Positions 29,941 through 47,400 of a DNA stretch of 64,000 nucleotides are shown piece after piece; positions within the stretch are counted from its first letter, which is position 1; each line of letters opens with the position of its first letter. The notes beneath the pieces are model-generated. The model made no database searches, was not told the origin of the DNA, and was given only the letters and a program-made list of their open reading frames with translations. The translations under genes and the position numbers were made by a program. Origin of the DNA: Hymenobacter edaphi (GTDB lineage Bacteria; Bacteroidota; Bacteroidia; Cytophagales; Hymenobacteraceae); contig NZ_QHKM01000001.1 of NCBI RefSeq assembly GCF_003258365.1, forward strand, positions 310,001 to 374,000. Reading direction: 5' to 3'.

Positions 29941-30004
29941 AAAAGGTGGGATAATGGCGAGTTGGCTGGGGGCTAAGCTCCATTGCCTACCTGTGTAAAC
30001 CAAG

Positions 30005-31924: not shown

Positions 31925-32063
31925 CACCACGTCAACGAAAAGCATATTGGCCGGGGCCGGGAGCAGGCCGGGGCACGGGTAAGAGAAACAGCATGCGGAA
32001 GCCGGAAAGCGCGACCGGGCGCGGCCGGCCGGTCGGTTGAGGGCGGGCAAACCCGCAAAGCAG

Positions 32064-32089
32064 CGGCCGGCCCGGATGCCGGCCGCTGC
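32064..32089. terminator. GC-rich hairpin after the mini-lipoprotein gene
   Basis: CAGCGGCCGGC pairs with GCCGGCCGCTG just downstream of the minus-strand stop at 32097. There is no T-tract, so termination is uncertain. Confidence 0.4.
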
Positions 32090-32096
32090 CCGGGGC

Positions 32097-32261
32097 TTAG
32101 CTGGCGCCGCCCGTGCCGGTGGTGGTGGGGGTGCTGGTGGGCGTGCCGCAGCCGCCGCCCTTGCCGCCTTTCGGGCTGACGTCGGGCGTTTCGCAGCTGC
32201 TAACCGCCAGCGCAAGGCCGGCCAGCAGCAGGCCGGAAAAACGAAGTGAAAGGTTGCGCAT
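32097..32261 (-). CDS. 54-aa mini-lipoprotein, Gly/Thr-rich
   Basis: Starts at ATG 32261. The signal MRNLSLRFSGLLLAGLALAVSSC has a lipobox with Cys23 as the lipidation site. The mature 31 residues are ETPDVSPKGG, a KGGKGGGCG stretch and a Thr/Pro/Gly tail. With so short a mature part it is probably an envelope-attached peptide of unknown role. It lies downstream of the urea-transporter/peptidase operon on the same strand but is separated from it by a terminator. Very short, yet the lipobox and clean start make it credible. Confidence 0.65.
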   Translation of the reverse strand: MRNLSLRFSGLLLAGLALAVSSCETPDVSPKGGKGGGCGTPTSTPTTTGTGGAS

Positions 32262-32688
32262 AAGGAAAACGGGTTGAAGGGTGAAACACGGGCTGAACTG
32301 GCATTGCCCGCGCCGGCCAGCCCTGTCGGCGCGGGCAGGTAGCAGAGGCTGTTCCCGCCGGCAGGGCGGGGCTACGGCTCCAAAGCAAGAGCAATGCGCG
32401 CGGGGCGCTAAACGCAATAGACGACCCGCCCCCGGACGCCGACGAATGGCCCTGATTCGGTGCTATATAAGCTCGGAAAAAATCACCAGATAGTTGCCGC
32501 TGAAAGGCGGCGGCGGTACAAAAAAAAGGCCGCCGGTATCAGCCGGTACCGGCGGGCCGCCGCGCCCCGCGCCCCGCCTCCCGGATGTCGCACACAAGGC
32601 AAGGCAGAAAAAGCGCTGGGGTAAGGTTTACGAGCGGGCTGATCGGGCTTTGGCAGCCTGCTCAGCGCATCGGAATGCCCCTGATTCC
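32262..32688. other. 427-bp gene-free interval with two hairpins
   Basis: Contains the minus-strand terminator at 32520-32557 and a GC-rich hairpin near 32306-32337 (TGCCCGCGCCG paired with CGGCGCGGGCA), which lies in the leader of the mini-lipoprotein gene. No coding region seen. Confidence 0.5.
32520..32557 (-). terminator. Intrinsic terminator of the UT-M23/TPR operon
   Basis: On the minus strand, a GC-rich stem (GGCCCGCCGGTA with TACCGGCGGCC) is followed by a run of seven T. It lies 130 bp after the TPR gene stop and faces the right way to end that operon. Confidence 0.7.
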
Positions 32689-33300
32689 CTACTGGGTCCG
32701 TTTCAGGCCGGCGGTGGCGGTGGCGTCGCCGGGACGGATGAGCAGGGCTTTGCCGTAGAGCACGCGGGCCTCGGTTTTCTTGCCCAGGTTCAGGTAGGCC
32801 CAGGCCAGCGAGAGGTTGGCGTCGTAGTCGAAGGGGTAGAGGTTGACCACCTTCTCGAAGTAGCGGGCCGCGGCCTCGTAGCTTTTGCGGTTGAGCAGGA
32901 TAACGCCCAGCCAGTAGTTGGCCTGGGTGTTCTGCGGGTCGATTTTCAGAATGGCCTGGTACAGCTCCTGCATGCGCTCCACCTTGCTCAGGGCGTTGAG
33001 CGGCTTTACCAGGCCCAGCTTCGGCTCGATGGCGTAGGGGCGCTGCTCCACGGCTTTCTGGTAATACGCCTCCGACACCGGGTAGTTTTTGGCCAGGAAA
33101 TACAGCCAGCCCAGGCGCAGATTCTGCTCGTAGGTGCCGGCGTAGCCCTTTTTCAGGGCCGCAATGGCCTCGGCGTACTCGCCCTTGGCCTCGGCGGCGT
33201 AGCTGCTGGCAAAGGCAGCCTGCAGGTCCTGGGCGCGGGCGCCCAGGGGCACGGTGAGGGCCAGGAGCAGCGCAGCGGTGAAGGGTTTTACCAGGTCCAT
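32689..33300 (-). CDS. Secreted tetratricopeptide-repeat protein
   Basis: 203 aa from ATG at 33300, which overlaps the end of the upstream gene by 13 nt. A signal peptide (MDLVKPFTAALLLALTVPLGARA) precedes about five TPR units: ASSYAAEAKGEYAEAIAAL, LGWLYFLAKNYPVSEAYYQKAV, then NYWLGVILLNRKSYEAAARYF and LSLAWAYLNLGKKTEARVLY. It should sit in the periplasm or on the outer membrane as a protein-binding scaffold. It is the last gene of an overlapping three-gene operon with the TPR-barrel protein and the urea-transporter/M23 fusion, so a structural partner role with these is likely (inference). Confidence 0.88.
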   Translation of the reverse strand: MDLVKPFTAALLLALTVPLGARAQDLQAAFASSYAAEAKGEYAEAIAALKKGYAGTYEQNLRLGWLYFLAKNYPVSEAYYQKAVEQRPYAIEPKLGLVKPLNALSKVERMQELYQAILKIDPQNTQANYWLGVILLNRKSYEAAARYFEKVVNLYPFDYDANLSLAWAYLNLGKKTEARVLYGKALLIRPGDATATAGLKRTQ

Positions 33301-34664
33301 GTGGCGGCGAGGGTCAGCGTGTGTTGGGTGTAAAACGTAAGAGTCTGAATCTGGGTGCGCGCTTCGGCGCCGTAGTAAAGGCGCGTCTGCCAGTGGCCGC
33401 CGGGCAGCGGCACCAGCAGCCCCAGGCCCAGGCGGCGGCGCAGCGGGTCGAGCAGGTTGTACACGTAGGCCCCGTCCTGGTCGGCCAGCACCGGCACGCG
33501 CCCCCAGCCCGCGTAGCCTTCGGCCCACAGGCGCGAAGCCAGCCGGGCGCCGGCGCCCAGCAGCGCGTGCGGGTAGGTGCGCCCGGCCGAGCGCACGAAG
33601 GCCGCCCGCGTGAAGCCGTAGAGACGCAGGTTGCCCAGCGGCAAGACCGTCAGCTGCACCTCGGCCTGGGTGCGGCTGGTGTCGGTGAGGCGGCCGGCGT
33701 AGAGGCCGGCCTGCAGCTGCCAGTACGGGCGCCCGTAGCGCAGCGCCGCGTACGCGAGGTGGCCGGGGTAGCGCGTCTCGTGGAAGCGGCTGCTGGTGAA
33801 GTGGTAGCCCAGGCGCCCCTGCAGGTGCAGCGGCAGCGGCACCGTTAGCAGGGCCTGGTAGTCGAACTGCCGCACCGGCACCCAGCGGGGGCGCAGCGGC
33901 TCGGGGTAGGGGCTGGGGCGCGAGTCGGGGTCGGCCACGGCCACGCGCACCTGCTGGGCGTAGTGCGAGGCAGCCTGCCAGAGCGTCCAGCCGCCGCCAA
34001 ACTGGCTGCCCACGCCCAGGCGCCCGAAGCTGGCCGTGCTGCGGTCGGGGCTGCTGGGCCACTGCGCGCCCAGCTCGGCTTCGGCGCGGGCCACGGCGCG
34101 GGGGCGCAGGCGCAGCGCCCGCCGCAGCGAGTCGGGCAGGGGCCGGGCCAGCCGGGCGGCGGTTTCGCGCTGGTTCAGGGCCAGCCAGCCGTAGGCCAGC
34201 CCCAGGCGCGCAAGCGGGTCGGCGGCATTGGCCCGCCGGGCGCGTTCGTAGTGCCCGATGGCCGCCGCGGGCCGGCCGCGCAGGGCGGCGGCGTAGCCCA
34301 GCCGCCGGCGCAGCACCGGGTAATCGAGGCCCAGGGCGAGGGCGCGGCGGCCGGCCGAATCCAGCGCCGCCCAGCGACCTTGCGCCAGCAGCGCGGCCGT
34401 CACACTGTCGGCAAAGGCGTAGTCCGACAAGTCCCGCGGGCCGGTGCGCTGGGGCCGCCGGGCCGAATCGGCCGCGGCCGGCGCCACGGGCTCCACCACC
34501 AGGCTGTCGGCGGCGGGGCGCAGGGTGTCGGCCGGCGGCGGCTCCACCACCAGGCTGTCGGGGCGGGCGGGCGGCGCGGTCTGGGCCCCGGCCGGCCGCA
34601 GGCGCAGCCCCGGCAGCAGGCCGAGCCAGAGCAGCAGGGGCAGAATCAGGCGACGGGGCGGCAT
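33288..34664 (-). CDS. TPR-containing outer-membrane beta-barrel protein
   Basis: 458 aa from ATG at 34664, overlapping the upstream gene by 19 nt. A signal peptide ends near PAGA at about residue 27. Residues about 30-70 are Pro/Ala/Asp-rich, with a duplicated DSLVVEP. About 75-185 is TPR-like (RRRLGYAAALRGRPAAAIGHYERA). About 200-458 is made of alternating amphipathic strands ending ...YTQHTLTLAATWTW with a C-terminal Trp, as in outer-membrane barrels. The plan recalls YaiO-type TPR-plus-barrel proteins, though I cannot confirm membership. Middle gene of the UT-M23 operon; it could give that system an outer-membrane component. Confidence 0.82.
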   Translation of the reverse strand: MPPRRLILPLLLWLGLLPGLRLRPAGAQTAPPARPDSLVVEPPPADTLRPAADSLVVEPVAPAAADSARRPQRTGPRDLSDYAFADSVTAALLAQGRWAALDSAGRRALALGLDYPVLRRRLGYAAALRGRPAAAIGHYERARRANAADPLARLGLAYGWLALNQRETAARLARPLPDSLRRALRLRPRAVARAEAELGAQWPSSPDRSTASFGRLGVGSQFGGGWTLWQAASHYAQQVRVAVADPDSRPSPYPEPLRPRWVPVRQFDYQALLTVPLPLHLQGRLGYHFTSSRFHETRYPGHLAYAALRYGRPYWQLQAGLYAGRLTDTSRTQAEVQLTVLPLGNLRLYGFTRAAFVRSAGRTYPHALLGAGARLASRLWAEGYAGWGRVPVLADQDGAYVYNLLDPLRRRLGLGLLVPLPGGHWQTRLYYGAEARTQIQTLTFYTQHTLTLAATWTW

Positions 34665-36853
34665 ACGAAGCGAAGAGGCGAAGACGAAGCGGGCAGTTGC
34701 ACGCGGAAGCCGGCCAGGGCGCCGCCGGTCAGCTCGATTTCGGCCTGCTGCAGCGGGCGCACGCGGCCGAAGTAGCGCAGCTCGGCGCGGCTGCTGAGTT
34801 GCAGGCGGCGCGGGTGGTAGGCGTCGTCGGCTCCGTGGCAGCGCAGGGCGAAGCAGGGGCGCACAAAGCGCACAAAGGGCGCCACCACGTCCTGGGCCCA
34901 CCGCAGCGCGGGGTTGCGCACCAGCGTCAGCGGAAAGGCGTCGAGCAGCTCGGCCTGGGGCTGGTAGCTGAGCAGCACCCGGTAGGCGGCGCGGTAGAAG
35001 AAGTAAAGCGCGGTGGTTTCGGGGCCGTAGTAGGCCGTGAAGCTGAAAGTCGCCGTGCTGCGCTCGAAGTAAGCCACGGCCCCGGAGTGGTGGCAGTAGA
35101 GGTAGGTGTGGTTGTAGGCATCGGTAAACACTTCCCAGCGCTGGGCCGGGGCTGCTTCGTCGTCGGGGTTGCGCACGTCGAGGCGGAAGCCGGGCGGCAG
35201 GTCGAAGGCCTGGCTGAGCAGCGGGCTCGGCGGCAGGTTCTGCACCGTTTCGCCCTCGGCCGGCACCCGGAAGCTGCGCACCTGCGCCTCGGGGCCGCGG
35301 CCGCTGAGGTAGTAGGCCAGCGGGTAGGCGAGGGTACGCGAGCCGATGTAGGGCGTAGCCTGCACCTGGAAATGCACATGCGGCTCGGCCGAGCGGCCCG
35401 AGTTGCCGCAGGTGCCCAGCAGGTCGCCGCGGCGCACCCGCTCGCCCACCTGCACCGGCGTGCTGTGCGGCCGCAGGTGCGACACCTTGCTGAACAGCCC
35501 CGGCCCGTGCTCCAGCACCACGGTGTTGCCCCAGTTCTGGCGCGTATTCACCTGCCCGATGGGGTTATCGTCGATGTGCGACACGACTTCCACCACCACC
35601 CCGTCGGCCGGAGCCAGCACGGGCTTGTTGTAGCAGTAGTAGTCGGCCAGGTTGGCGCCGGGGCCCCGGTAGGTGCGCCCGTCGACGTCGCGGATCATAA
35701 AGTCCAGCGCATCAGCCCATTCTCCCTGGTGCGTGGGCTGGCCCGCGTAGCCCTGCGTCACCTGCCACTCGCCCAGAAAGGGCAGGCTCAGGTGCACGTA
35801 GAGCTGGCTTTGCAGCCGCTCCCGGTCGTTGGTGTAGGCGTAGAGGTTGCGCTCGGGTGAGTAGCGCTGAATGGGCGTAAGCGGCAGCCAATCAGCGCGC
35901 TGACGCAGCAGCAGCACGTACAGAAACAGCTGCGACGTCAAGCAAAACGGCAGCGCAAAGGCCGGCAGCCCCAGCCGCGCCAGCAGGGTCGTCAGCCCCG
36001 CCACCAGCACCGCCGTGACGGGCACGCTCAGCAGCGCCCACAGGTACGAGGCCGCCGACGGAATGACGAACACCCCGCCCACCGCCACGGCCGCCATGAT
36101 GTAGTTGGCGCCCAGGTTGTAGTGGTTGATGCCGCCCGGCGCGTAGGCCCCGGTGGCCATGCCGAAGGCGTAGGCCCCCAGAAACGCCACTATCGACAGC
36201 GAAAACGCAATGCGGGAGTGCCAGAGCAGCCCGGCGGCCATCAGCAGGCCCACCAGCGGACTGTCCTGAAAAAACACCGAGCTCAGGGCCCGCAGGTAGG
36301 TGTCGGGCATCAGCGGCAGGTGCCAGCCGTTGAGCCAGTGGATGACGTGCAGCAGCGGCGCCCCGCCCACGGCGTACATTTCGTTGAGCCAGTAGATGCC
36401 CCGCTCGTTCAGGGCCAGGGCGTGAAACTGCTCGGCCGCGGGCGTGAGCAGCCAGATGACCAGCAGAAACGGCAACGACAGCGGCGGCAGCCCCCGCGGG
36501 GCCAGCCAGCCGCCCAGGGCCACCGTCAGCAGCAGGGCCAGCAGCGCGCCCACCAGCAGCACCAGCCCGTAGGCCCAGCCCGGCTCGTAAAACGTGCCCA
36601 GCGCCAGCCCCACCAGCAGGGCGTTGAAGCTGTGGCCGCCGGTGGCCAGCACTTCCCGGTTGAAGCCCAGCAGCCAGCCCGCGCCCACCGCCAGTACCGC
36701 CGCCGCCAGGCCGGCCGCCCCCGCGCCGGGGTTGGCAAACGAGAGCAGCAGCAGCAGGGCTGCGAAACCCCGGTGCTGGGAAAAGAAAATCAGGCTGTAG
36801 CTGCGCAACACGGCCAAAGCGAGGGTGCGCAGGGGCGTATTGGCTCGGAGCAT
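34646..36853 (-). CDS. Urea-transporter-family membrane domain fused to M23 (LytM-type) peptidase
   Basis: 735 aa from ATG at 36853; a GTG at 36880 is possible. Residues about 8-330 have roughly ten membrane helices and urea transporter (UT/SLC14-like) features: LRSYSLIFFSQHRGF and the repeat signatures around GHSFNALLVGLALGTFY and NHYNLGANYIMAAVAVGG. About 360-510 is an M23 metallopeptidase with metal ligands His375 and Asp384 (HQGEWADALDF) and His492/His494 (EPHVHFQV). About 520-735 is an unrecognised beta-rich C-terminal region. Two domains normally found apart, joined and co-encoded by overlap with a beta-barrel and a TPR protein, suggest one envelope complex. Whether urea is the substrate is unknown. 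Confidence 0.85.
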   Translation of the reverse strand: MLRANTPLRTLALAVLRSYSLIFFSQHRGFAALLLLLSFANPGAGAAGLAAAVLAVGAGWLLGFNREVLATGGHSFNALLVGLALGTFYEPGWAYGLVLLVGALLALLLTVALGGWLAPRGLPPLSLPFLLVIWLLTPAAEQFHALALNERGIYWLNEMYAVGGAPLLHVIHWLNGWHLPLMPDTYLRALSSVFFQDSPLVGLLMAAGLLWHSRIAFSLSIVAFLGAYAFGMATGAYAPGGINHYNLGANYIMAAVAVGGVFVIPSAASYLWALLSVPVTAVLVAGLTTLLARLGLPAFALPFCLTSQLFLYVLLLRQRADWLPLTPIQRYSPERNLYAYTNDRERLQSQLYVHLSLPFLGEWQVTQGYAGQPTHQGEWADALDFMIRDVDGRTYRGPGANLADYYCYNKPVLAPADGVVVEVVSHIDDNPIGQVNTRQNWGNTVVLEHGPGLFSKVSHLRPHSTPVQVGERVRRGDLLGTCGNSGRSAEPHVHFQVQATPYIGSRTLAYPLAYYLSGRGPEAQVRSFRVPAEGETVQNLPPSPLLSQAFDLPPGFRLDVRNPDDEAAPAQRWEVFTDAYNHTYLYCHHSGAVAYFERSTATFSFTAYYGPETTALYFFYRAAYRVLLSYQPQAELLDAFPLTLVRNPALRWAQDVVAPFVRFVRPCFALRCHGADDAYHPRRLQLSSRAELRYFGRVRPLQQAEIELTGGALAGFRVQLPASSSPLRFVCRPVA

Positions 36854-36927
36854 TTGGGGGCCTCGCCCCCGGCTTCCCACAAGAGTGAGGAAGCCGAGGC
36901 AGTGCGAACAATGAATTGGTGGAAAAG

Positions 36928-36935
36928 CAAATGTA
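36928..36935 (-). promoter_or_regulatory. -7 box TACATTTG for the UT-M23 operon
   Basis: On the minus strand it reads TACATTTG, a perfect TAnnTTTG, 75 bp before the ATG at 36853. It indicates a transcription unit separate from the upstream PLP decarboxylase gene. A GC-rich hairpin (36943-36977) lies between them. Confidence 0.55.
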
Positions 36936-36990
36936 GAACGGGCGGGGCCGCGCAGCGCGAGCGGAGCGGCCCCGCGGCGTCAGAACGACA

Positions 36991-38400
36991 TCAGCCGGGC
37001 GTCGCCGTTGCTGACGGCTGGCTCCCCCTTGCTTGGGGAGAGGAGGCCGGAGGATGAGGCCCCAGGTGCGCCGGTACTTCCTCCAGCTGCTGCAGGTAGT
37101 CCAGCGTTTCGGCCTGGCGGATGCGGTGGGGGCGGCCCTGCTCGTCGAGCAGCACCACGGCCGGGCGCAGGGTGATGAACTGCATCCACTGGGTCATGTT
37201 GTAGGCGCCCACTTTGTGCACCACCACCTGGTCGCCGCGGTTGAGCAGGGGCAGGTTCACGCTGTCGCGCAGCACGTCGATGTTCATGCACAGCGGCCCG
37301 TAGAGCACCGTGTCCTCGGTGTGCTGCGAAAAGTCACCGGCCGGGCTTATCTTGTGGTCGTACCAGAAGCTGGTGAAGAGCACGTTCACCCCGAAGTCGA
37401 GGATGGTGGCGCGGCGGCCGTCGGCCAGGCGCTTGGTGGCCAGCACCGTGCCCAGCAAATAGCCCGCGTCGTCGACGAGCAGGCGGCCGGCTTCGAGGAT
37501 GAGCAGGGGCAGCTCGTCGGGCCGGAAGCCCGCCCGCTGCAGCGTATCGGCAATGACTTCGGCAAACTCGTCGATGCCGGGCGCGGTGTCGGTGCCGGGC
37601 AGGTAGGCGCCCTTCAGGGTGTTGGTCGACGGGAAGCCGCCGCCCAGGTCGAGGTACTGAATGGGCGTGTTCAGCTGGGTGCGGCAGCTCCAGGCCAGGT
37701 CGGCCAGCTTCTGGGCGGCCACGCCGTAGGGCTTGGTTGTGAGCAGGTAAGTGCCCAGGTGGCAGTGCAGCCCCACCAGCTCCAGCCGCCCCGAGCCCAC
37801 GATGCGGCCGATGGCGTTCCAGGCCTGCCCGTTTTCCAGGTTGAAGCCGAACCGGTCCCACTGCGGGTACACGCCCGCGTCGAGGTTGACGCGCACCGCC
37901 ACCCGCGGCCGGCGCGGCAGCCCGGCGGCCAGGTCCAGCAGCTCGTACAGCTCGTCGAAGTGGTCGAGGTGAATCACCGAGTCCAGCGCGCAGGCCCGCT
38001 GCAGCTCCGCCCGCGACTTGCCCGGCCCGTTGAAGATGATCTGCGGGCCGGGCACGCCGTTCAGCAAGGCCTTTTCGTACTCGAAACCCGACACCACCTC
38101 GGCCCAGGCGCCCTCCTGGTGAAACACCCGGCACACGGCATTGAGGTAGTTGGTTTTGTACGACCACGCCAGCTGCACCCGCGGGTAGCGCGTGCGAAAC
38201 GCCCGCACCGCCTGCTGGTAGTTGCGCCGCAGCTGCTTTTCGCTGAGCACGAACAGCGGCGAGCCGAACGCCCGCAGCAAGTCCTTCACCGGCGCCCCGT
38301 CGATATCGGGCACCGGCTGGGCCTCGGTGCGCGCGCCGAACTTGTTGAGCGGCCCGGCGCTGAGCTTTTTGATGAGCGGCCGTTCGTAGCGTTGTTTCAT
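36991..38400 (-). CDS. Fold-type III PLP decarboxylase, diaminopimelate-decarboxylase-like
   Basis: 469 aa from ATG at 38400. An alanine-racemase-like barrel carries the PLP Lys82 (AWSYKTNYLNAV), the phosphate-side HCHLGTYL, GGGFPS, and LEAGRLLVDDAG (family usually EPGR). The second domain holds the partner-subunit Cys in YGPLCMNIDVL. The family includes LysA, ornithine/arginine decarboxylases and BtrK, which acts on a carrier-bound glutamyl group. The C-terminal 35 residues are Pro/Ser-rich and probably disordered. It is not beside other lysine genes; its neighbours are an ATP-grasp ligase and a PqqD-like protein. A dedicated pathway rather than lysine synthesis is therefore more likely. Confidence 0.86.
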   Translation of the reverse strand: MKQRYERPLIKKLSAGPLNKFGARTEAQPVPDIDGAPVKDLLRAFGSPLFVLSEKQLRRNYQQAVRAFRTRYPRVQLAWSYKTNYLNAVCRVFHQEGAWAEVVSGFEYEKALLNGVPGPQIIFNGPGKSRAELQRACALDSVIHLDHFDELYELLDLAAGLPRRPRVAVRVNLDAGVYPQWDRFGFNLENGQAWNAIGRIVGSGRLELVGLHCHLGTYLLTTKPYGVAAQKLADLAWSCRTQLNTPIQYLDLGGGFPSTNTLKGAYLPGTDTAPGIDEFAEVIADTLQRAGFRPDELPLLILEAGRLLVDDAGYLLGTVLATKRLADGRRATILDFGVNVLFTSFWYDHKISPAGDFSQHTEDTVLYGPLCMNIDVLRDSVNLPLLNRGDQVVVHKVGAYNMTQWMQFITLRPAVVLLDEQGRPHRIRQAETLDYLQQLEEVPAHLGPHPPASSPQARGSQPSATATPG

Positions 38401-38512
38401 GGGGTTAGGGAGGAGTCAGAAGCTAGGAGTTAGGAGCTGGAATGGGAATAGGGAAGTGAGAATGTGGTTTTGTTATCTGGGCAGAAACCAAGCGCCGCGT
38501 TAGTCAGTAGCC

Positions 38513-38568
38513 TCCTAGCTCCTAGCTCCTAGCTCCTAGCTCCTAGCTCCTAGCTCCTAGCTCCTGGC
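38513..38568. repeat. Heptanucleotide tandem repeat (TCCTAGC)n
   Basis: Seven perfect TCCTAGC units (38513-38561) and one imperfect unit TCCTGGC (38562-38568), ending directly before the minus-strand stop codon of the ATP-grasp gene. An inverted, diverged match (AGCTAGGAGTTAGGAGCTGG, about 38418-38437) lies in the same gap, so the region can fold as a hairpin. The copy number is likely variable. Confidence 0.9.
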
Positions 38569-38569
38569 A

Positions 38570-39640
38570 TCACAGCTCGCCGAAAGCGGAAATCTGGTGA
38601 AACTCGTGGTTGTCGGTAATCAGGTCCCAGGCGTAGCGGATAAACATGCGGCCCACGGCGTACTCCGTCCAGGGCTCCGTGGGCAGGCCCAGGGCCAGGC
38701 GCACCAGCGCGGCGGGCTGGTTCTGGCCCGCCGCCGCCGTCAGGTAAATCCAGGCCGGAAAGCGCGGGTTGATTTCCAAGATGTAGGGCCGCCCGTCGGC
38801 GGTGCGCATGAGTTCCAGCTCGCAGCCGCCGCGCCAGCAGGTGCCCGCCACGAAGCGGCGCGCCAGCTGCAGCAGGGTCTCGTCTTCCAGCGTGATGCCG
38901 GCCCAGGCCTTGCCCTTGTCGGTGATGTAGAGCTTGCGCATGGGCACCACGCTCAGGGTGCGGCCGGTGCCGTCGCCCAGGGCCGCCACGTTGATTTCGT
39001 GGCCCTGCACGAATTCCTGCGCAATAACGGGCAGGCCCCACTTGGCGCTGAGCTGGTGAAAGGCCTGGCGCGCCTGCTCCAGCGTGTGGGCCACCGAGGC
39101 GTCGTAATACCGGCCCTTGATGACCAGCGGGTAGCCCAGCTGCTCGGCCGCCGGGGCCAGTTCGTCGGCGCGGTGCACGAGGCGCTGCTGGGGCACCAGC
39201 AGGCCGTGTGCCTCACCGAAAGCGCGCAGGTTCAGCTTGTCGCGGGCTTCCAGCTGCTCCATGGTGGGCAGGAAGGTGCGGATGCCCAGCGCCGCCAGCC
39301 GCGGGGCCAGACGCACGAAGTTGGGCAGCTCCGCGTCGAAATTCGGGACGATGACATCCAGCCCCTCCCGCTCGTGAATCTCGCCGAGGCGCTCCAGCAG
39401 CACCTGCGTGCCAGCCGAAGGGTAGGGTAGTTGGTAAGTTTTATCGACGAGGTCGTGCATGTAAATGCCCGGCTCCAGCGCCTCGTAGCTCAGCCCGATG
39501 ATGCGCACGGCAAAGGCCGGGCTTTCGCGCAGGGCCCGGATGACGGCCACGCCCGGCCCGGGGCTGTCGATGGCGTTCAGCCCGGTCACGCCGATGACGT
39601 AGCGCGGGCGGTGGTCGGCAGGGGGATGGGCGTCGGACAA
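38570..39640 (-). CDS. ATP-grasp ligase
   Basis: 356 aa, apparently from a TTG at 39640; no in-frame ATG lies between the putative -7 box (TATATTGC, minus strand, 39687-39694) and this codon. The pre-ATP-grasp region (VIGVTGLNAIDSPGPGVAVI) resembles that of carbamoyl-phosphate-synthase-type ligases. ATP-binding Lys175 (LVIKGRYYD), AQEFVQGHEINV and the metal-binding Glu289/Asn291 in LEINPRFPAW are present. Such enzymes form acyl-phosphates from carboxylates and join them to amines or thiols. Substrates unknown. It lies between a PqqD-like gene and a PLP decarboxylase gene on the same strand, suggesting the three act in one pathway. Confidence 0.87.
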   Translation of the reverse strand: MSDAHPPADHRPRYVIGVTGLNAIDSPGPGVAVIRALRESPAFAVRIIGLSYEALEPGIYMHDLVDKTYQLPYPSAGTQVLLERLGEIHEREGLDVIVPNFDAELPNFVRLAPRLAALGIRTFLPTMEQLEARDKLNLRAFGEAHGLLVPQQRLVHRADELAPAAEQLGYPLVIKGRYYDASVAHTLEQARQAFHQLSAKWGLPVIAQEFVQGHEINVAALGDGTGRTLSVVPMRKLYITDKGKAWAGITLEDETLLQLARRFVAGTCWRGGCELELMRTADGRPYILEINPRFPAWIYLTAAAGQNQPAALVRLALGLPTEPWTEYAVGRMFIRYAWDLITDNHEFHQISAFGEL

Positions 39641-39722
39641 GGGGAGTAGGGACAGGCGTTTCGGGGAATAACAAGGCGGGAGCAGAGCAATATAGCGCGG
39701 GCATGGCTGCGCCGACTCTCAG

Positions 39723-39772
39723 TTCAGCCCGCGTCTGCCTGAACGATGACGGCCACGCAAACGCGGGCTGAA
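39723..39772. repeat. 12-bp inverted repeat (TTCAGCCCGCGT / ACGCGGGCTGAA)
   Basis: 39723-39734 pairs perfectly with 39761-39772 in the gap between the PqqD-like gene and the ATP-grasp gene. GCCCGC/GCGGGC-rich, similar in style to the element at 40194-40267. It could form a hairpin in the shared transcript. Confidence 0.5.
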
Positions 39773-39782
39773 GCCCGCACTA

Positions 39783-40022
39783 CTAGTCCAGCAGCTGATG
39801 GTCGCGCAGCTGGGCCACGAGGTCGTCCCAGTCTTTTTCCAGCTGGTTGGGCTCCACGTCGTAGCGGTTGAGCAGGTGGGTTTTGATGGCGGCCGGGCTC
39901 TGGTCCTGCTTGAGCAGCTGCAGGATTTCGGTGGCCAGCGCGTTGGCCGTGAACGAGTCACCGGTAGCGGGGTTGAAGATGAACCCGGTTTCGCTGGTGG
40001 CAATATTCTTCTTGAGTTTCAT
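39783..40022 (-). CDS. PqqD-like small protein (RiPP recognition element family)
   Basis: 79 aa from ATG at 40022. It matches the PqqD pattern: a short N-terminal strand, GFIFNPATGDSFTANALATEILQLL, then PAAIKTHLLNRYDVEP and a closing DLVAQLRDHQLLD. PqqD-fold proteins bind the leader of a ribosomal peptide and present it to a modifying enzyme; stand-alone ones mark peptide-modification pathways. Here it heads a row with an ATP-grasp ligase and a PLP decarboxylase. No precursor peptide is obvious within the row. A TATGTTTA -7 box lies 79 bp upstream. Identification is by motif reading; the fold is short, so some doubt remains. Confidence 0.8.
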   Translation of the reverse strand: MKLKKNIATSETGFIFNPATGDSFTANALATEILQLLKQDQSPAAIKTHLLNRYDVEPNQLEKDWDDLVAQLRDHQLLD

Positions 40023-40100
40023 AGCAAACGCGGCTGCCGGCGCCGCGGCGGGTCGGGGGAAATCGGGGCAGTAGCGGCCGGGGCCGCCCCATCGGTCCGC

Positions 40101-40108
40101 TAAACATA
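40101..40108 (-). promoter_or_regulatory. -7 box TATGTTTA for the PqqD-like gene
   Basis: Minus-strand TATGTTTA, 79 bp upstream of the ATG at 40022, with a TTG at 40137-40139 as a rather distant -33 candidate. Confidence 0.4.
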
Positions 40109-40193
40109 CGACGCCCCGCCCGCCAGGGCGGCCGGCCAATCGACCAGCTCCGCAAATGTGCCGACAATTTCGCCCCGCCGCTGCTCCGTCGCA

Positions 40194-40267
40194 CGGGCTT
40201 TCCGCGTCCGGACGCTCGAAGTCGGGGCGACGATGCCCGGCCGACGCGACCGGACGCGGAAAGCCCG
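40194..40267. repeat. Perfect 18-bp inverted repeat
   Basis: CGGGCTTTCCGCGTCCGG (40194-40211) is exactly mirrored at 40250-40267. It is probably a dispersed element of the same kind as 39723-39772 and lies between the glycosyltransferase and PqqD-like genes. Confidence 0.75.
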
Positions 40268-40425
40268 CGCTACATCGTCCGGATTGCCCCGATGACCGCC
40301 GCGCCGGGCGTTACCCGCAAAACCCAAGCAGCGTTGCACTCATTCACCACCACTGGGGCGGGGGGCGCAAACGCCAGCGCCGGGCGGCCATCGGGAAGCG
40401 TAGCGGTGGGCTCGATAGCGGGCGG

Positions 40426-41592
40426 TCAGGCGGTGAGGTACTGCACAATATCGGTGAGCAGCCGCCCCTGCTGGGCGGCCGAAAAGTAGCTGCTCAGCTG
40501 CGCGTGCGGGGCCTCGGGCGGGGCCTGGCGGCCGGCCTGCAGCACCGCCCGCGTCTGCATGGCGCCGAAAGCCACGTCGCGGGCCGGAAACAGGTGGCGC
40601 AGACCGGGGAAGTCGGCGGCGCTGAGGCCCTCGGCCGCCACCACCGGGCAGCCGGCCGCCAGCGCCGCCAGCAGCAGCGGGTCGTAGTCATCGGTGGGGG
40701 CGGGGGAGAGCAGCGCATCGAGGGCGGGAAAAAGCAGGCCGCCGGCCTCGGGCGCGTGAAACGGCCGCAGGTACACGGCCTGCGAGAGGCCCAGCGCGCG
40801 GGCGTGCCGGCGCAGCCGCTGCCAGCGGCCGGCGTCGGGCCCGGCGTGGGGGTGGCCCACGATGACCAGCTCGGCCGGCAGGTTCAGCTCGCCGCGCAGG
40901 CGGTAGAGCACTTCCAGGGCAAAATAGCCGCTGTGGCCATCGTCGGCCACGCCCAGCAGCGGGGCCGCGGCGGGTAGGTCGAGCAGGCGGCGGGCCTGGG
41001 CGGGCGGCGTGGCGGCCACGCGGCGGGCGGTGGCGGGCAGGCCGGGCGGCACCACCCACAGCTGCCGCGCGTCGAGGCCGGTACGAGCTTCCACGGCACG
41101 GGCCGTGCCGGGCAGCGGGGCCAGCCAGGCATCGAGCGGGCGGCGGCTCAGGCGGGCCCACCACGCGGCGGGGGCCGCCGCGGCCAGGGGCTCCTGCTGC
41201 TGAAACAGCAGGCGCAGGCGCCCGCCCAGCAGCCACTTGGCGGCGCTGGCCACCGGCAGATCGAGGGCGCGGACCACCAGCAGCGTGCCAATGCGCTGCC
41301 GGCGCAGCCAGCGGGCCAGCAGCCAGGCCGCGCGCGGTACGCGGCGCAGGCTCCGGGGGGCCGCCAGGGGCTGCACCGGCAGCCGGCCGGTGGCGTGGGG
41401 GGCCAGGGGCGAATCGGCGGCCGCCACCAGCTGCACGGGCTGGGCGGCGGCGCGCAGCGTGGCGCACAGCCGCAGCAGTTGCTCTTCGGCCGGACCCAGG
41501 TCAGGGGCCAGGCTCAGCACGGCCAGCGGCTCGGCCAGCCCGGCCGGCGCACTGGGCCCAACAAGGACGGACGCGGAAACAAACGTGGGCAT
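40426..41592 (-). CDS. GT4-like glycosyltransferase
   Basis: 388 aa from ATG at 41592; a TTG 33 nt upstream is unlikely. It is Ala/Leu-rich with two Rossmann-like halves. The C-terminal half has features of family 4 transferases: LGVADDGHSGYFALEVLYRL, ELVIVGHPHAGPD and an acidic region SPAPTDDYDPLLLAALAAGCPVVAAEG, which resembles the EX7E nucleotide-sugar site with Asp in place of the first Glu. The N-terminal half is divergent and the sugar donor and acceptor cannot be told. It stands 400 bp upstream of the PqqD-like gene on the same strand. Membership in that cluster is possible but unproven. Confidence 0.75.
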   Translation of the reverse strand: MPTFVSASVLVGPSAPAGLAEPLAVLSLAPDLGPAEEQLLRLCATLRAAAQPVQLVAAADSPLAPHATGRLPVQPLAAPRSLRRVPRAAWLLARWLRRQRIGTLLVVRALDLPVASAAKWLLGGRLRLLFQQQEPLAAAAPAAWWARLSRRPLDAWLAPLPGTARAVEARTGLDARQLWVVPPGLPATARRVAATPPAQARRLLDLPAAAPLLGVADDGHSGYFALEVLYRLRGELNLPAELVIVGHPHAGPDAGRWQRLRRHARALGLSQAVYLRPFHAPEAGGLLFPALDALLSPAPTDDYDPLLLAALAAGCPVVAAEGLSAADFPGLRHLFPARDVAFGAMQTRAVLQAGRQAPPEAPHAQLSSYFSAAQQGRLLTDIVQYLTA

Positions 41593-42277
41593 AAGGCGGA
41601 AAGCGAGGCAGGAGCAGCGGCTCAAACATAGCCGCCCGCCCGGAGCCGCTTCCGCGAATCAGACCAGCCGCCCGATTGTCTCGACCAATCCGGCCCGGCA
41701 GCGGCCGGACGCCGGGTCCGGCGGGCGGCGCGGCCCGGCGCCCGGCCAGCTAGAAAAACCCGCCGTTCGTCTAGGTCCAGGGTCGATTGGGCGAATGCGC
41801 CAGCGCGGCAGCGGGCGGCTGCGTTGTTTTACCGCAGGTTTCTGCCCCGCGTCACCTGCGGCACCGTTCGGTCAGCTTCGCTGGACCCAGGGTAGCTGAC
41901 CGAAGGCTTAAACTTTATTGTGTTGGGGAAAAGGCCGCTTCGGTTCGAGGCGGTTTTTTTATTGTCAACTATCTGAAAATAAGCCGGTAAATAAGGAGTA
42001 TGTATCGGGAGCGGCCTTCTGCGCCGCGCAGGACGACGGACGACTACCCGAACACAGACTTCCTGGATGCAGGTGGTGCATCGACCGAGGAAAAGCCCGC
42101 GCCGGTCGGTAAACTTCGGCCGCTGGTGGAGTGCCGCTCCGGTGAAGGCGGCGCCGCCCGTAGCTTGCCGCCGATTGGCGGGGCCGCCCCGCCCGGGTGC
42201 CCGCCGCGGTCAACCCCGCCGGCCGCTCCTGCGTCTGAGGGCGCAGGGCCGGTGCCCGCTCCTCGATTCGCCTGCCC
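41593..42277. other. 685-bp intergenic region with candidate small RNA
   Basis: Divergent gap between the glycosyltransferase and LytS-type kinase genes. No convincing protein-coding frame. The section 41867-41960 has two ordered hairpins, the second a typical intrinsic terminator (separate entry). The rest (41970-42277) is GC-rich without a recognisable motif. Confidence 0.5.
41867..41960 (+). ncRNA. Candidate small RNA ending in an intrinsic terminator
   Basis: A perfect 11-bp stem (TTCGGTCAGCT at 41867-41877 with AGCTGACCGAA at 41894-41904) is followed by a short AT-rich spacer. A second hairpin (CCGCTTCG, loop GTT, CGAGGCGG; 41935-41953) then runs straight into seven T (41954-41960). No plus-strand gene lies upstream that would need this terminator. 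A promoter was not identified, so the 5' end is unknown. Confidence 0.3.
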
Positions 42278-43387
42278 ATGCCGCTGAATGCCGCATTCGT
42301 CCGTCACGCCTCCGCGCTGCTGCTGCACGCCCTCATCTGGGGGCTGATCGGGCTGCTGCTGGCCTCGCCGCCGCCGGGGCAGCCCAGCCCGCTGCCCACG
42401 GCCTTCTGGCTGAAGCAGGGCGCGGTGCTGCTGGCGCTGATGGTGGTGTTTTACGCCAACGCGCGCTGGGCCGTGCCGCGCCTGCTCTACCGCCGCCGGG
42501 GGTGGCTGTATCTGCCCCTGCTAGCGGCGGCCGTGGCGTGCGTGCTCGGGCTGCACCAGCGTCTGGAGGTGGCCCTGAACGTGCCCGAGCTGCTGGCCCA
42601 GGCCCGCGAAAACGCCCTGAACGTGAGTGCCTGGTGCGGCCCGCGCCCCCACGTGCAGCTCGGCCCCCAGGACGCGCCCGATCTGCTCAACCCCGGCATC
42701 CTGCTCATCACCCTGCTCACGCTGGCCATCAGCACGGGCACCACGGTGGTGCAGCGGGCCCAGCACGAGGCCCAGGTGCGGCGCGAGCTGGAGCAGGAAA
42801 AGCTGGCCACCGAGCTGAGCCTGCTCAAGGCCCAGATCAACCCGCACTTCTTCTTCAACACGCTCAACAACATCTACGCCCTCACGCTCATCGACGGCGA
42901 GCAAGCCCGCGCCGCCCTGCACCGCCTCTCGCGCATGATGCGCTACGTGCTCTACGAAACGCCCGCCGGTACCACCCTGCTGAGCCACGAATTGACGTTT
43001 GCCCGGGACTACATCGAGCTGATGCACCTGCGCCTGACCGACAAGGTGCAGGTGACCTTCGAGGCGCCCGAGCACGTGCAGGAAGTGCCGATTGCGCCCA
43101 TGCTGCTGCTGCCCTTCGTCGAAAACGCCTTCAAGCACGGCGTCAGCGCCACGGCGCCGAGCCGCATCTACATCGGCGTGCGCCAGCCGGATGCGCAGAC
43201 CGTGGAAATGGAAGTGCGCAATACCCTGTTTCCGGAGCGCCCGGGCAGCCTCGACGAGCCCGGCGGCATCGGCCTCGTCAACACCCGCCGCCGCCTGGAG
43301 CTGCTCTACCCCGGCCGCTACACCCTCACCGTCAACCCGCGCACCGCCCACCACGAGTACCAGGTGCTCCTAACCTTAGCCGTATGA
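42278..43387 (+). CDS. LytS/YehU-type sensor histidine kinase
   Basis: 369 aa from ATG at 42278. Four hydrophobic helices (about 10-30, 45-62, 76-92, 138-156) are followed by a short coiled coil. Next is the His_kinase domain with phospho-acceptor His190 (LKAQINPHFFFNTLNNIYAL) and an HATPase region with FVENAFKHGV and GGIGLVNTRRRLELLY. This is the family that pairs with LytTR regulators, and the stop overlaps the regulator start (ATGA), so the two are translationally coupled. The signal is unknown; the membrane part has no extracellular domain. Confidence 0.93.
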   Translation: MPLNAAFVRHASALLLHALIWGLIGLLLASPPPGQPSPLPTAFWLKQGAVLLALMVVFYANARWAVPRLLYRRRGWLYLPLLAAAVACVLGLHQRLEVALNVPELLAQARENALNVSAWCGPRPHVQLGPQDAPDLLNPGILLITLLTLAISTGTTVVQRAQHEAQVRRELEQEKLATELSLLKAQINPHFFFNTLNNIYALTLIDGEQARAALHRLSRMMRYVLYETPAGTTLLSHELTFARDYIELMHLRLTDKVQVTFEAPEHVQEVPIAPMLLLPFVENAFKHGVSATAPSRIYIGVRQPDAQTVEMEVRNTLFPERPGSLDEPGGIGLVNTRRRLELLYPGRYTLTVNPRTAHHEYQVLLTLAV

Positions 43388-44148
43388 TTCTCAGCTGCAT
43401 TGCCGTCGACGACGAGCCCCTGGCCCTGGGCATGGTGTGCGCCTTTATCGAGCAGACGCCGTTTCTGAAGCTGGCGGGGCGCTACGGCAGCGCCGTGGAA
43501 GCCCTGCGCGGCCTGCACCAGCCCGCCATGCAGGCGGACCTGATTTTCCTCGACATCCAGATGCCCGACCTCAACGGCCTGGAGCTGGCCCGCGTGCTCG
43601 GCCGCGGCGAGGACAAGGCCCGCATCATCTTCACCACCGCCTTCAACCAGTACGCCCTCGAAGGCTACAAAGTCGACGCGCTGGACTACCTGGTGAAGCC
43701 CTTCAACTACGACGAGTTTCTACGCGCCGCCCTCAAGGCCAAAAACTACTTCGAGCTGATTCGGCGCCCCGCCAGCGAGCCGGCCCCGGCCCCGGTAGCC
43801 GTGCCCGCCGCCCCGCCCGGCCCCGAGGACGAGTACCTCTACCTGAAAGTGGAGTACCAGCTGGTGCGCGTGCCCCTGAGCGACATCCTCTACATCGAGG
43901 GCCTGAAGGACTACATCAAGGTGTACCGCCGCAGCGAAACCAAGCCGCTGCTCTCGCTTTCCAGCCTCAAGGGCGTGGAAGACAAGCTGCCCGCGCGCCG
44001 CTTCATGCGCATTCACCGCTCCTACATCGTGGCGCTGGACCACATTACGTCCGTCACCCGCGGCACCGTGCAGATCGGCGGCGAAACCATCCCCGTCAGC
44101 GACAGTTACCGCGAGGCGTTTGATAAGTATTTGAGCCGGTGGAAGTAG
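43384..44148 (+). CDS. LytTR-family response regulator
   Basis: 254 aa from ATG at 43384. Receiver domain at 1-120 (DDE at 9-11, phospho-acceptor Asp57, Lys in LVKPFNYDEF), a Pro/Ala linker (about 128-148), and a LytTR DNA-binding domain (about 150-254) with YLYLKVEYQLVRVPLSDILYIEG and RFMRIHRSYIVAL. Encoded in overlap with the LytS-type kinase, forming a complete two-component system. Its target genes are not evident; the convergent T9SS-substrate pair lies next to it. A strong terminator follows. Confidence 0.95.
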   Translation: MILSCIAVDDEPLALGMVCAFIEQTPFLKLAGRYGSAVEALRGLHQPAMQADLIFLDIQMPDLNGLELARVLGRGEDKARIIFTTAFNQYALEGYKVDALDYLVKPFNYDEFLRAALKAKNYFELIRRPASEPAPAPVAVPAAPPGPEDEYLYLKVEYQLVRVPLSDILYIEGLKDYIKVYRRSETKPLLSLSSLKGVEDKLPARRFMRIHRSYIVALDHITSVTRGTVQIGGETIPVSDSYREAFDKYLSRWK

Positions 44149-44230
44149 GCCCGGCGCTGCCCTGACCGGAGCGATGCATCAACCCGAACCTCAGGCCGAG
44201 CGCAGCCAGGGTCTGACGCTCGAAAACCAG

Positions 44231-44264
44231 GAAAGGCCACCCGAATACGAGTGGCCTTTCTTAG
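44231..44264. terminator. Bidirectional hairpin terminator after the LytTR gene
   Basis: GAAAGGCCAC (44231-44240) pairs with GTGGCCTTTC (44251-44260). It ends the LytS/LytTR transcript and lies 20 bp beyond the stop of the convergent PID-CTERM gene. Confidence 0.8.
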
Positions 44265-44283
44265 TTCAATCAATTTGTTTGGG

Positions 44284-44472
44284 TTAGCGACGCTTGCGCA
44301 GGCCGCTCAGGGCGTAGGCCGCGCCGCCGGCCAGCAGCAGCGAGACCCCGCCGTCGAGGGGCACGGCCGTGGGCTCGGCGGGGGTACCGGGCTCGGGGCC
44401 GCCCGAGCCCGGCGTCTGGGCGGAAGCACCCGCGGCGCAGCACAGCAGCAAAAGCAGCAGATTGCGTTTCAT
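44284..44472 (-). CDS. PID-CTERM-type mini-protein
   Basis: 62 aa from ATG at 44472. A signal peptide (MKRNLLLLLLCCAAGASA) precedes a short Gly/Pro-rich mature region. The C-terminus is VPLDGGVSLLLAGGAAYALSGLRKRR, a P-(I/L)-D-GG motif, hydrophobic helix and basic tail, as in the PID-CTERM protein-sorting class of Bacteroidota. That class is thought to need an exosortase-like partner, not seen here. It starts 15 bp after the large T9SS substrate gene on the same strand, so the two are probably one transcript. The motif was recognised by eye. Confidence 0.75.
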   Translation of the reverse strand: MKRNLLLLLLCCAAGASAQTPGSGGPEPGTPAEPTAVPLDGGVSLLLAGGAAYALSGLRKRR

Positions 44473-44487
44473 CGGCGGCCCAGCAGG

Positions 44488-47400
44488 TTAGTTCAGCACG
44501 AGTTTGCGAGTGAGCGTGCCGGCCGCCGTGCGCACCTGCACGGTGTACACGCCCGCGGGCAGCTGCTCCACCGACAGCGTGTGCTCCAGCAGGCGGCCGC
44601 TGAGCGGGGCCGTTTCGCGGCGCACCAGCTGGCCCAGGCCGTTGAGCAGGCGCAGCTCGGCCTGCCCGCCCGGCAGCCCCGCGGCCGACACCGTGACCGT
44701 GCGGCCCTGGGCCGGGTTGGGGAACACATTTAGCTCGGGGGCGGCGAGGCGGGCGTTTTGCGTCGAGGTCACGCGCTGGGCGTTCAGGTGCAGCACGAAG
44801 CGCGTGGTGCTGGCCCCACCGGCGAGCTGGGCGGCGTAGTCGCCCTGGCGCAGGTCGTGCCAGGTGCCGCTGAGACGGTCCTCCAGGTAGAGGCCGGCCG
44901 CGGCGGGGAAGTTCAGCAGCTGCCGGGCCGAAAAGGTGTAGGTGCCGGCGGCGGGCGCGTAGAGGCCCAGCGGCAGGTCGACGGGCTGGGTGCCGTCGGG
45001 CAGGCCCTGAATGCTCAGCGCATCAGTACCGGCCTGCTGGTAGAGCGAGGGCTGCTGGCCGCCGTTGAGCTGCACCTTCAGCGCGTCGTAGCGGCCGTCG
45101 AAGTTCAGCGTGGCGCCGGCCTGCTGGTACACGAAAAGCACGTCTTCGCGGGCCGCCGCGCCGGCGGCGTTCGGGGCCGTCAGCGCCAGCGCCAGCAGCG
45201 GGCGGGTTTCCTGGGTGCGGTTCAGGGCCGGGTTTTCTAGCGTGGTGACGCGCACGGTGTTGTTCAGCGCCAGGGTGGGCGTGCCGGTAGCGGCCCGCAC
45301 GAAGAAGGCCTGGCCCATCGGAATCAGCTGGGCGCCGGGGGCACCCACGCCGTTGACGTAGCTCACGTAGCCGCCGGCGTAGGGGCCGGTGCTGCGGTAC
45401 ACGTAGGCCGCCGCGTTCATGCCGGCCGGGATGGTCACCAGCGTCCAGTCCAGGGGCGAGGGGTAGGGGTTGCCCACCAGGTTCCAGCCGGGGGCCGCCG
45501 CGCCGCGGGTCAGCGGAATGTTCACCGCGCCGTTGCCCAGCGTGCCCACGAAGTCCACCGTCTGCGGGGTGAGCTGCACGGTGTAGCCGCGGCCGGGCGT
45601 AAGCGCGTCGCCCAGGCTGCCCGGCGACTCCCAGCCGGTGTCGAAGGTATTGCCCGGGCCGGGCGTCAGGCGCTGCTCGTTGTAGCCGAACACGGTGGGG
45701 AAGGGCGTCACCGTGCTGGGGTTGGTGGCCGCGTTGTAGGCCGGGTTCACCACCGGGCTGAAGCTGCCGGTCGTCAGGTCGGCCACCGTCGAGCCGCTGA
45801 CCGGCGCCGAGAAGTGGCGGTAGCCGGGGCCGGCGTTGAGCGCGGGGCTGATCCAGCGCTGCACCGTGGCCGGGCCCTGCACCACGCCGCCGTTGTTGTA
45901 GACGGAAGCCGTGCCGGAGCTGTTCGAGAGCAACGTCAGCGCCTGTCCGTTGACGTTCAGGTTGCCGTTGAGCGTCAGCAGGCCCTGCACCCGCAGCGGG
46001 GCCACCAGCCGGGCGCCGGCCGAGCCCACGCTCAGGTTGCCGAAGTCGGTGCCGAGGCCGCCGAGGTCGTTGGGCGTGGCGCCGAGCAGGCGCACGGTGC
46101 CGCCGGTCTGGTTGAAGAAGCCGCTGTTGGTAAACTGGCCCATCACCGAGAAGCTGCCGCCCGTGAGCGTGACGGTGCCGCCGCTCAGGATGGTGATACC
46201 GCCCACCGCGGCGTTGGCGCTGATGACGGGGTAGCGCGGCATGCCGGCCGGAATGGTGATGTTGTCGGCGGCCGTGGGTACCACGCCGCAGGCCCAGTTG
46301 GCCGCGTTGTTCCAGTCGGTGCTCACCGCCCCGCTCCAGCTGAACTGCCCGCCCACGTTCACCACCACGGTAGCTTCGGCAAAGCAGCCGCTGTTCACGT
46401 TGGTGGCCCGCACGCGGTAGGTGGTCGTGGCCGTCGGGTTCACCAGTACCGCGGCGCCAGTGGTGCTGCTGATATTGGTGACCGGTGTCCAGGTGTAGGC
46501 AATGCCCTGGCGGATGGTGGCCGAGTTGTTGATCCAGCTCGGCGTGGTGGCGCCGCTGCCCAGAGTGCCGTTGTTGGCGTTGGCCGTCTGGTCCACGAAG
46601 GCCGAGCCGTTGCCCTCGTCGAGGCGGTAGTAGGCCACCAAGCCGGGCTGGGTGCCGAGCACGGTCTTGTTGTAGTCGGCCTGCACCTGGGCCTCGGTGC
46701 GGGCCAGGTTCCACACGCGCACCTCGTCGAGCTGGCCGTTGTAGTACTCGCTGAAGCCAGGCTGGTTGCCCAGGGCCAGGACGTTGCTGTTGGTCGTTAC
46801 GGTGCCGGTCAGGGCCTGGTCCAGCACCTTGGCCCCGTCGATGAAAATCTTCACCCGGCTGCCGTCGTAGCTGGCCGCCACGTGGTGCCAGCTGCCCTTG
46901 TAGGCCGTGTACGGGGTGGAAAATACCCGCCAGCTGCCGCCAACGTTCAGCCAGATGGCCAGGTCGTCCCAGCGCGTATCGGTGCGGGGGAATATGTAGC
47001 CGGTGTTGGCGCTGTTGCTCGATTTGCACACCACATCCTGCGTGGCGGCCCCCGTGCCCACCGGGTTGATCCAGGCCTCCATCGTCAGGGCCGAGGTCAG
47101 GTCCAGCGAGTTGCTGGCCGGCACGCTGGCCACATCGTCGGTGCCATCGAAGCGCAGGCCGCGGCCGGCTACCGAGGCGGTGCCGTTGGTGCCGGTGGCG
47201 GTGAGCGTGGTGGAGCCGCCCGAGCAGATGGTAGTGCTGCCCGCGGGCGAAATCGTCACCGACGGGGCCGTGTCGGCCATGATATTGAAGGGCGCCGAGG
47301 TGGCCGTGCAGCCCGCGTCGTTGGTCAGGCGCACCGAGTAGGCCCCGGTGGTCGTGATGTTGGAGAGGCCCGGCCCGTTGGCGCCAGTGACGCTGGCGGC

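Follow-up and report, generated by a model that had tools for sequence, protein, structure and literature searches.

The N-citrylornithine decarboxylase FigC is grouped, in the study describing it, with SbnH, AcsE, MccE and BtrK and with the diaminopimelate and D-ornithine decarboxylases of bacteria and plants (PMC7857480). According to the same text, the substrates of the first five are citryl-, nucleotide-peptide- or carrier-bound amino acids, BtrK acting on an amino acid bound to the carrier BtrI (PMC7857480). In FigC, a Met stands in place of the acidic residue adjoining the catalytic Cys, and T327, T330 and Y331 occupy positions whose usual residues hold a basic side chain or diaminopimelate's distal carboxylate, as given there (PMC7857480). 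Here we describe a six-gene operon on the minus strand, at 32.7-40.0 kb of a 64,000-nucleotide stretch of the Hymenobacter edaphi genome (RefSeq assembly GCF_003258365.1, contig NZ_QHKM01000001.1, positions 310,001 to 374,000; hereafter the window), in which a fold-type III pyridoxal phosphate (PLP) decarboxylase related to FigC is encoded together with a PqqD-like protein, an ATP-grasp ligase, an M23 peptidase joined to a urea-transporter domain, and two TPR proteins. The six genes are closely packed and conserved as a single unit.

The first-pass annotation of the window had proposed the PqqD-like/ATP-grasp/decarboxylase trio as a possible pathway. The three open reading frames do lie in a row on the minus strand at the positions given for them, and the row is real; they constitute only the first half of the operon, genes 4-6 (32689-36880, same strand) having been overlooked (Table 1). 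The start codons of genes 5 and 6 were chosen by eye, with gene 5 overlapping gene 4 and gene 6 overlapping gene 5, and the real start of gene 4 may lie near position 36853. Under a rule-based choice of starts, 17 of 18 loci from the taxonomic order of the window had genes 4 and 5 touching or overlapping, and 16 of 18 had genes 5 and 6 doing so. The hairpin behind gene 6 was the strongest among 11 such sites in the region, against a chance expectation of 6.4.

Table 1. Features of the operon and its upstream flank in window coordinates (aa, amino acids)
Feature	Position	Strand	Basis
Gene 1, PqqD-like protein, 79 aa	39783..40022	-	PF05402
Gene 2, ATP-grasp ligase, 356 aa, TTG start	38570..39640	-	Pfam and conserved residues
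Gene 3, fold-type III PLP decarboxylase, 469 aa	36991..38400	-	Pfam, motif C371-M372-N373-I374-D375
Gene 4, urea-transporter domain, M23/LytM peptidase and C-terminal beta domain	34646..36880	-	
Gene 5, signal peptide (by eye), TPR domain and predicted 14-strand outer-membrane barrel	33288..34667	-	
Gene 6, TPR protein, about 203 aa, signal peptide by eye	32689..33300	-	
Terminator-like hairpin after gene 6 (9 pairs, then 8 T)	32530..32555	-	
LytS-type histidine kinase, divergent, upstream of the operon	42278..43387	+	
LytTR response regulator, paired with the kinase	43387..44148	+	

The decarboxylase, the ligase and the PqqD-like protein

The operon decarboxylase is distinct from the LysA of the cell. 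It matched PF02784 (96.3 bits) and PF00278 (47 bits), its top Pfam match, like those of genes 1 and 2, exceeding the curated cut-off; its best NCBIfam match was TIGR01048 lysA, at 212.8 bits under the cut-off of 297.9, and the FslC/FigC model NF041039 gave 201.7 bits, under a cut-off of 500. A separate LysA, scoring 402.8 bits against the same 297.9, is encoded on this contig some 158 kb from the operon and adjoins an aspartate kinase gene, which removes the objection, raised in advance by the first-pass annotation, that gene 3 could be the only lysA of the genome. No lysine genes were recognised among the operon neighbours scanned, in agreement with the earlier reading. LysA matches within the genus shared 30-33 percent identity with the operon decarboxylase. 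The motifs also differed: CMNID and FT[SA]xWY[DEN] in 19 operon sequences, CESSD and RPALY in eight LysA sequences, the substrate-binding residues of LysA being the acid that follows the catalytic Cys and the Arg of the RP motif. In a tree of these sequences (19 of the 80 operon sequences and the eight LysA) LysA formed a group with a support of 1.000 on a long branch; its attachment point fell inside the operon group, as may happen with long branches. The identity of gene 3 as a housekeeping LysA was rejected on the second LysA, the score, the tree group and the motifs; annotating it as lysA would mislead metabolic models. Seven plasmid records bear a decarboxylase of this kind, all at less than 60 percent identity and several annotated as lysA.

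On alignment, the ligase, the decarboxylase and the peptidase all retain their predicted catalytic residues. The residues quoted by the first-pass annotation were found as described: K82 within SYKTN, HCHLGT and YGPLC in the decarboxylase, and E289/N291 within EINPRF in the ligase. Among 80 relatives of the decarboxylase K82, H212, H214, T217, G368, P369 and C371 were invariant (80/80), whereas C213, L215 and Y367 varied. The Met beside the catalytic Cys, T343 and W346 were present in 80/80 and Y347 in 78/80, and the Arg at the diaminopimelate position was absent. Among solved structures the family profile matched N-citrylornithine decarboxylase (7kh2) at 264 bits, the best diaminopimelate decarboxylase at 195, BtrK, a more distant match, at 125, and 6knh, an SbnH-group entry, at 80. 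The Met, T343/W346/Y347, the missing diaminopimelate Arg and the kinship with FigC together suggest that the substrate is an amino acid with an acylated or tethered side chain. FigC/FslC, the nearest solved relative, shares the catalytic Lys and Cys and the Met replacing the binder of a free side-chain amine. It differs in having T330 where the operon enzyme has W346 (alignment by eye) and in its context, since no citrate-ligating NIS synthetase was recognised by eye among the conserved flank clusters, for which no model was run. In genome G368 the decarboxylase matches came in two pieces, one with a stop, which may reflect decay or a sequencing error.

The ATP-grasp enzyme matched PF15632 (39.1 bits) and PF02655 (34.2 bits), both above cut-off, and, among solved structures, 2pn1, an entry named carbamoylphosphate synthase large subunit (53 bits). 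K175, K236, E289 and N291 were conserved in 67/67 relatives. Among the six operon products it is the only one reminiscent of the maturases of ribosomally synthesised and post-translationally modified peptides (RiPPs). BtrJ is likewise the ATP-grasp enzyme of butirosin synthesis; the BtrJ/BtrK/BtrI system, however, includes an acyl carrier protein, and no Pfam match to one was obtained among the six genes or the orthologues scanned.

The PqqD-like protein scored 47.6 bits against PF05402 (cut-off 23.4), the family common to PqqD and RiPP recognition elements, and barely passed TIGR04353, the HPr-rel-A system PqqD peptide chaperone (37.1 against 35), a system that has a kinase partner. A8, G13, F16, G21 and S23 were invariant in 74 close relatives and 14 more diverse ones; the stretch NPxxGDS[FY]xxN was nearly universal in the 74, and the N-terminal half as a whole was strongly conserved. 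The C-terminus is unconserved, its final residues differing in length and sequence, which argues against a C-terminal carrier role. LysW is a C-terminal amino-group carrier, and a LysW-type role for the PqqD-like protein was rejected on these variable last residues. The first-pass annotation had further suggested that an amino acid is loaded and decarboxylated on a peptide or on the PqqD-like protein itself. The pocket motif and the likeness to FigC favour a tethered or acylated substrate; loading on the PqqD-like protein found no support, and no test made pointed to a carrier site. A likeness of its GDS motif to a phosphopantetheine site was seen by eye only. In locus L050 the PqqD-like gene (around 8095-8331) has an internal stop, through decay or a sequencing error.

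A convincing precursor peptide, as expected of PqqD/RiPP systems, was not found in the flanks of 80 loci, where divergent peptides could escape the search; a peptide substrate of the kind that the first-pass annotation proposed to hunt for may still exist. Reading frames of at least 22 aa, those of genes 1-6 aside, were compared by BLAST (E 1e-4), with pairs above 92 percent identity removed; the best 30 clusters present in at least six loci were taken and judged by position, not singly. The short ones were mostly antisense to kinase, regulator or acetyltransferase genes, and the large same-strand clusters were these genes themselves.

Conservation of the operon in Bacteroidota

Genes 1-3 were found in identical order in 19 of 20 loci from the taxonomic order of the window, the exception being L049 with the decarboxylase alone, and this conservation across relatives excludes a chance arrangement. 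Gene 4 followed in 19/20 and genes 5 and 6 in 18/20 each, the latter two being absent in L049 and in L052, which ends at a contig end. A wider set of 80 named loci was also scanned with patterns from the operon family; these were the best 80 of 582 candidates, all from Bacteroidota, and overlap the former set (L049 and L154, for example, are the same contig); the set speaks for near relatives only. Forward matches to genes 1-6 were obtained in 73, 77, 80, 77, 67 and 65 loci, respectively, the count for gene 6 including one chance TPR match at L154. All misses lay at contig ends except those of L154 and L156. Of about 20 sequences, 16, 15, 12 and 14 entered alignments A1, A2, A3 and A4, respectively; A4 excluded the PqqD-like sequence of L050.

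A sample of 395 Bacteroidota genomes was searched for the decarboxylase at E <= 1e-70 and for the ATP-grasp enzyme at E <= 1e-30; each was present in 34, and the two genome lists were identical. The transporter and peptidase occurred in the same 34 genomes (split in two in G397, with a stop in one of the halves), and the M23 part alone was matched in 16 further genomes. The limits used here, and at the order level below, are strict and leave weak relatives uncounted. Co-conservation of the trio, whose absence the first-pass annotation had named as a refutation, is seen both in gene order and in genome content. The operon is present in Hymenobacter, Pedobacter, Mucilaginibacter, Chitinophagaceae and Paludibacter. 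At the order level the decarboxylase was found at no less than 59 percent identity in 32 of 390 genomes; within Hymenobacter genes 1-3 were present in three of eight genomes, and the other five lacked them, bar weak ATP-grasp matches to other enzymes.

In each of the draft genomes G136 and G193 genes 1-4 lie on four different contigs and all have been retained; the contigs bearing the ATP-grasp gene carry none of the other five operon genes. Such co-retention after dispersal is the best sign of joint function, to be taken with caution, both assemblies being fragmented. The two genomes (L154, L184, L185, L192, L193, L199) represent one genus. Additional genes were seen within some operons: one of 315 aa between genes 3 and 4 in L169 (11358-12305), and others in L146 (3555-4358) and L126 (2305-4569), whose C-termini resemble secretion-tail domains by eye.

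The membrane proteins and the possible role of the operon

The products of genes 4-6 are predicted to be an inner-membrane channel-peptidase fusion, an outer-membrane TPR barrel and an exported TPR protein. In gene 4 the urea-transporter domain (about residues 16-350) has the fold of this family, with a PF03253 score of 179 bits, above cut-off, and several pore residues retained; against the urea-transporter equivalog TIGR03441 it reached 106.8 bits, under the cut-off of 274.6. It differs from dvUT and UT-B (SLC14-type) by the fused M23 peptidase and by the loss of the polar residue at dvUT E187, a position occupied by Ala or Ser in 57/59 sequences. The M23/LytM part (about residues 360-540; PF01551 60.6 bits, cut-off 28.7) has the zinc and catalytic His/Asp motif of M23 peptidases, its five residues conserved in 59/59. 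The C-terminal beta domain was hardly covered by the structure matches. The barrel of gene 5 was predicted, with 14 strands, from a model of the L094 orthologue and fold matches; the outer-membrane channels FadL, TodX and CymD lack an N-terminal TPR like that of gene 5 and share 8-13 percent identity with it.

It seems to us about an even chance that the operon is a biosynthesis-and-export line for a modified small amino-acid product, passing both membranes. In this line the ATP-grasp enzyme would couple an amino acid, via its side chain, to an acyl group, a peptide or a carrier, the PqqD-like protein recruiting or presenting one of the ligation partners, and the decarboxylase would strip the alpha-carboxyl from the coupled amino acid to give an amine. 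The M23 domain may then trim or free the product, and its export may fall to the urea-transporter-like channel of gene 4, the gene 6 TPR protein and the gene 5 barrel in the outer membrane, the direction being a proposal. The ligation and decarboxylation steps are drawn from the enzyme families and pocket residues, release and export from predicted location only. A narrower version must be called doubtful: here ligation and decarboxylation of the amino acid would both take place on a protein or peptide that the PqqD-like protein holds, and the peptidase fused to a repurposed, exporting urea channel would then free the product. Several points tell against the proposed line. The membrane side of the M23 domain is in conflict, as loop charges favour the cytoplasm and two stand-alone M23 relatives of the gene 4 peptidase part (L188 and L190; six M23-only regions were fetched, and two gave a reading frame under the filter) seem by eye to carry signal peptides. 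The matches of the modelled barrel are to a widespread fold and say nothing on function. In urea transporters of known structure the pore measures 2-3 Angstrom (PMC10541013), through which only very small cargo could pass, a poor fit with a bulky product.

A free small acyl-amino-acid pathway like those of FigC, SbnH and AcsE, with the PqqD-like protein as a mere helper of the ligase, is a possible explanation, if one we lean against: FigC is the nearest solved enzyme and has the Met at the acidic position in common with the operon decarboxylase, but the score against the FslC model is far from its cut-off, and no siderophore synthetase or receptor was recognised among the conserved neighbours, without a model being run for them. 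A ribosomal peptide pathway would accord with the two PqqD-family matches, with the conservation of the N-terminal half of gene 1's product and with a membrane protein that bears a peptidase. In it, the PqqD-like protein would bind the leader segment of a peptide whose gene lies elsewhere, the ligase and the decarboxylase would modify that peptide, M23 would remove its leader, and the product would leave through the fused channel or through the barrel. The lack of a convincing precursor in the 80 flanks and a pore seemingly too narrow make it rather unlikely.

Modification of the cell envelope, a periplasmic M23 domain cutting or remodelling peptidoglycan and the enzymes altering the wall peptide, would agree with the solved M23 relatives, mostly peptidoglycan peptidases, and with the putative signal peptides of the two stand-alone relatives. 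It is nevertheless improbable, given the loop charges, the 34/395 distribution, too patchy for a basic wall step, and a channel and barrel left unexplained. Urea uptake for nitrogen supply has in its favour the PF03253 match and the retained pore residues, but is very improbable: clear urease matches (E < 1e-50) occurred in 2/34 operon genomes against 4/20 others, or 7/34 against 5/20 with weak matches over cut-off included, the 20 being an unmatched set of genomes from an earlier table, and the dvUT E187 position has lost its polar residue. A urea supply for urease was judged unlikely on the urease distribution in operon genomes. Housekeeping lysine synthesis with misread neighbours is hardly credible: lysA is the best NCBIfam match of gene 3, but the score falls short and the real LysA, beside its aspartate kinase gene, forms a separate tree group with other motifs.

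Each part of the operon comes from a known family; the combination, and the urea-transporter/M23 fusion, were not seen described. Targeted full-text literature searches, with most subscription papers beyond reach, returned no description of the six-gene set among the papers listed, and PMC12710340 does not mention decarboxylase, M23, urea or Bacteroid. If the reading with an exporting urea channel is true, the operon would be a production and export line of an undescribed kind, for a new class of small secreted product, carried by roughly one Bacteroidota genome in twelve of the sample. The operon would contribute a metabolite pathway and a new role for the urea-channel fold. The fusion of peptidase and channel is in itself unusual and open to test.

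Flanking genes and minor features

The LytS-type kinase and LytTR regulator upstream of the operon perhaps control its expression. A pair of this type was found upstream in 32 of the 61 loci, among the 80, with at least 3.5 kb of upstream sequence, and a GNAT acetyltransferase gene stood immediately upstream in 15 of the 61. Such pairs are common in Bacteroidota, and the link with the operon is therefore suggestive. No promoter of the sigma-70 type was found by scanning; to our knowledge, Bacteroidota do not use sigma-70-type promoters. An Rfam scan of window positions 30000-46000 gave no match at gathering score.

Large type IX secretion tail proteins (CHU_C, Por_Secre_tail) flank the operon at 30005-32215 and 44488-48027. 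Between genes 2 and 3 there is a perfect array of 7.7 copies of CTCCTAG (38512-38565). The gap between genes 1 and 2, which is longer in the window than in G002 and G006, holds an inverted-repeat-like sequence, GCGGGCTGAAGCCCGC (39763-39778), with a single match in the window.

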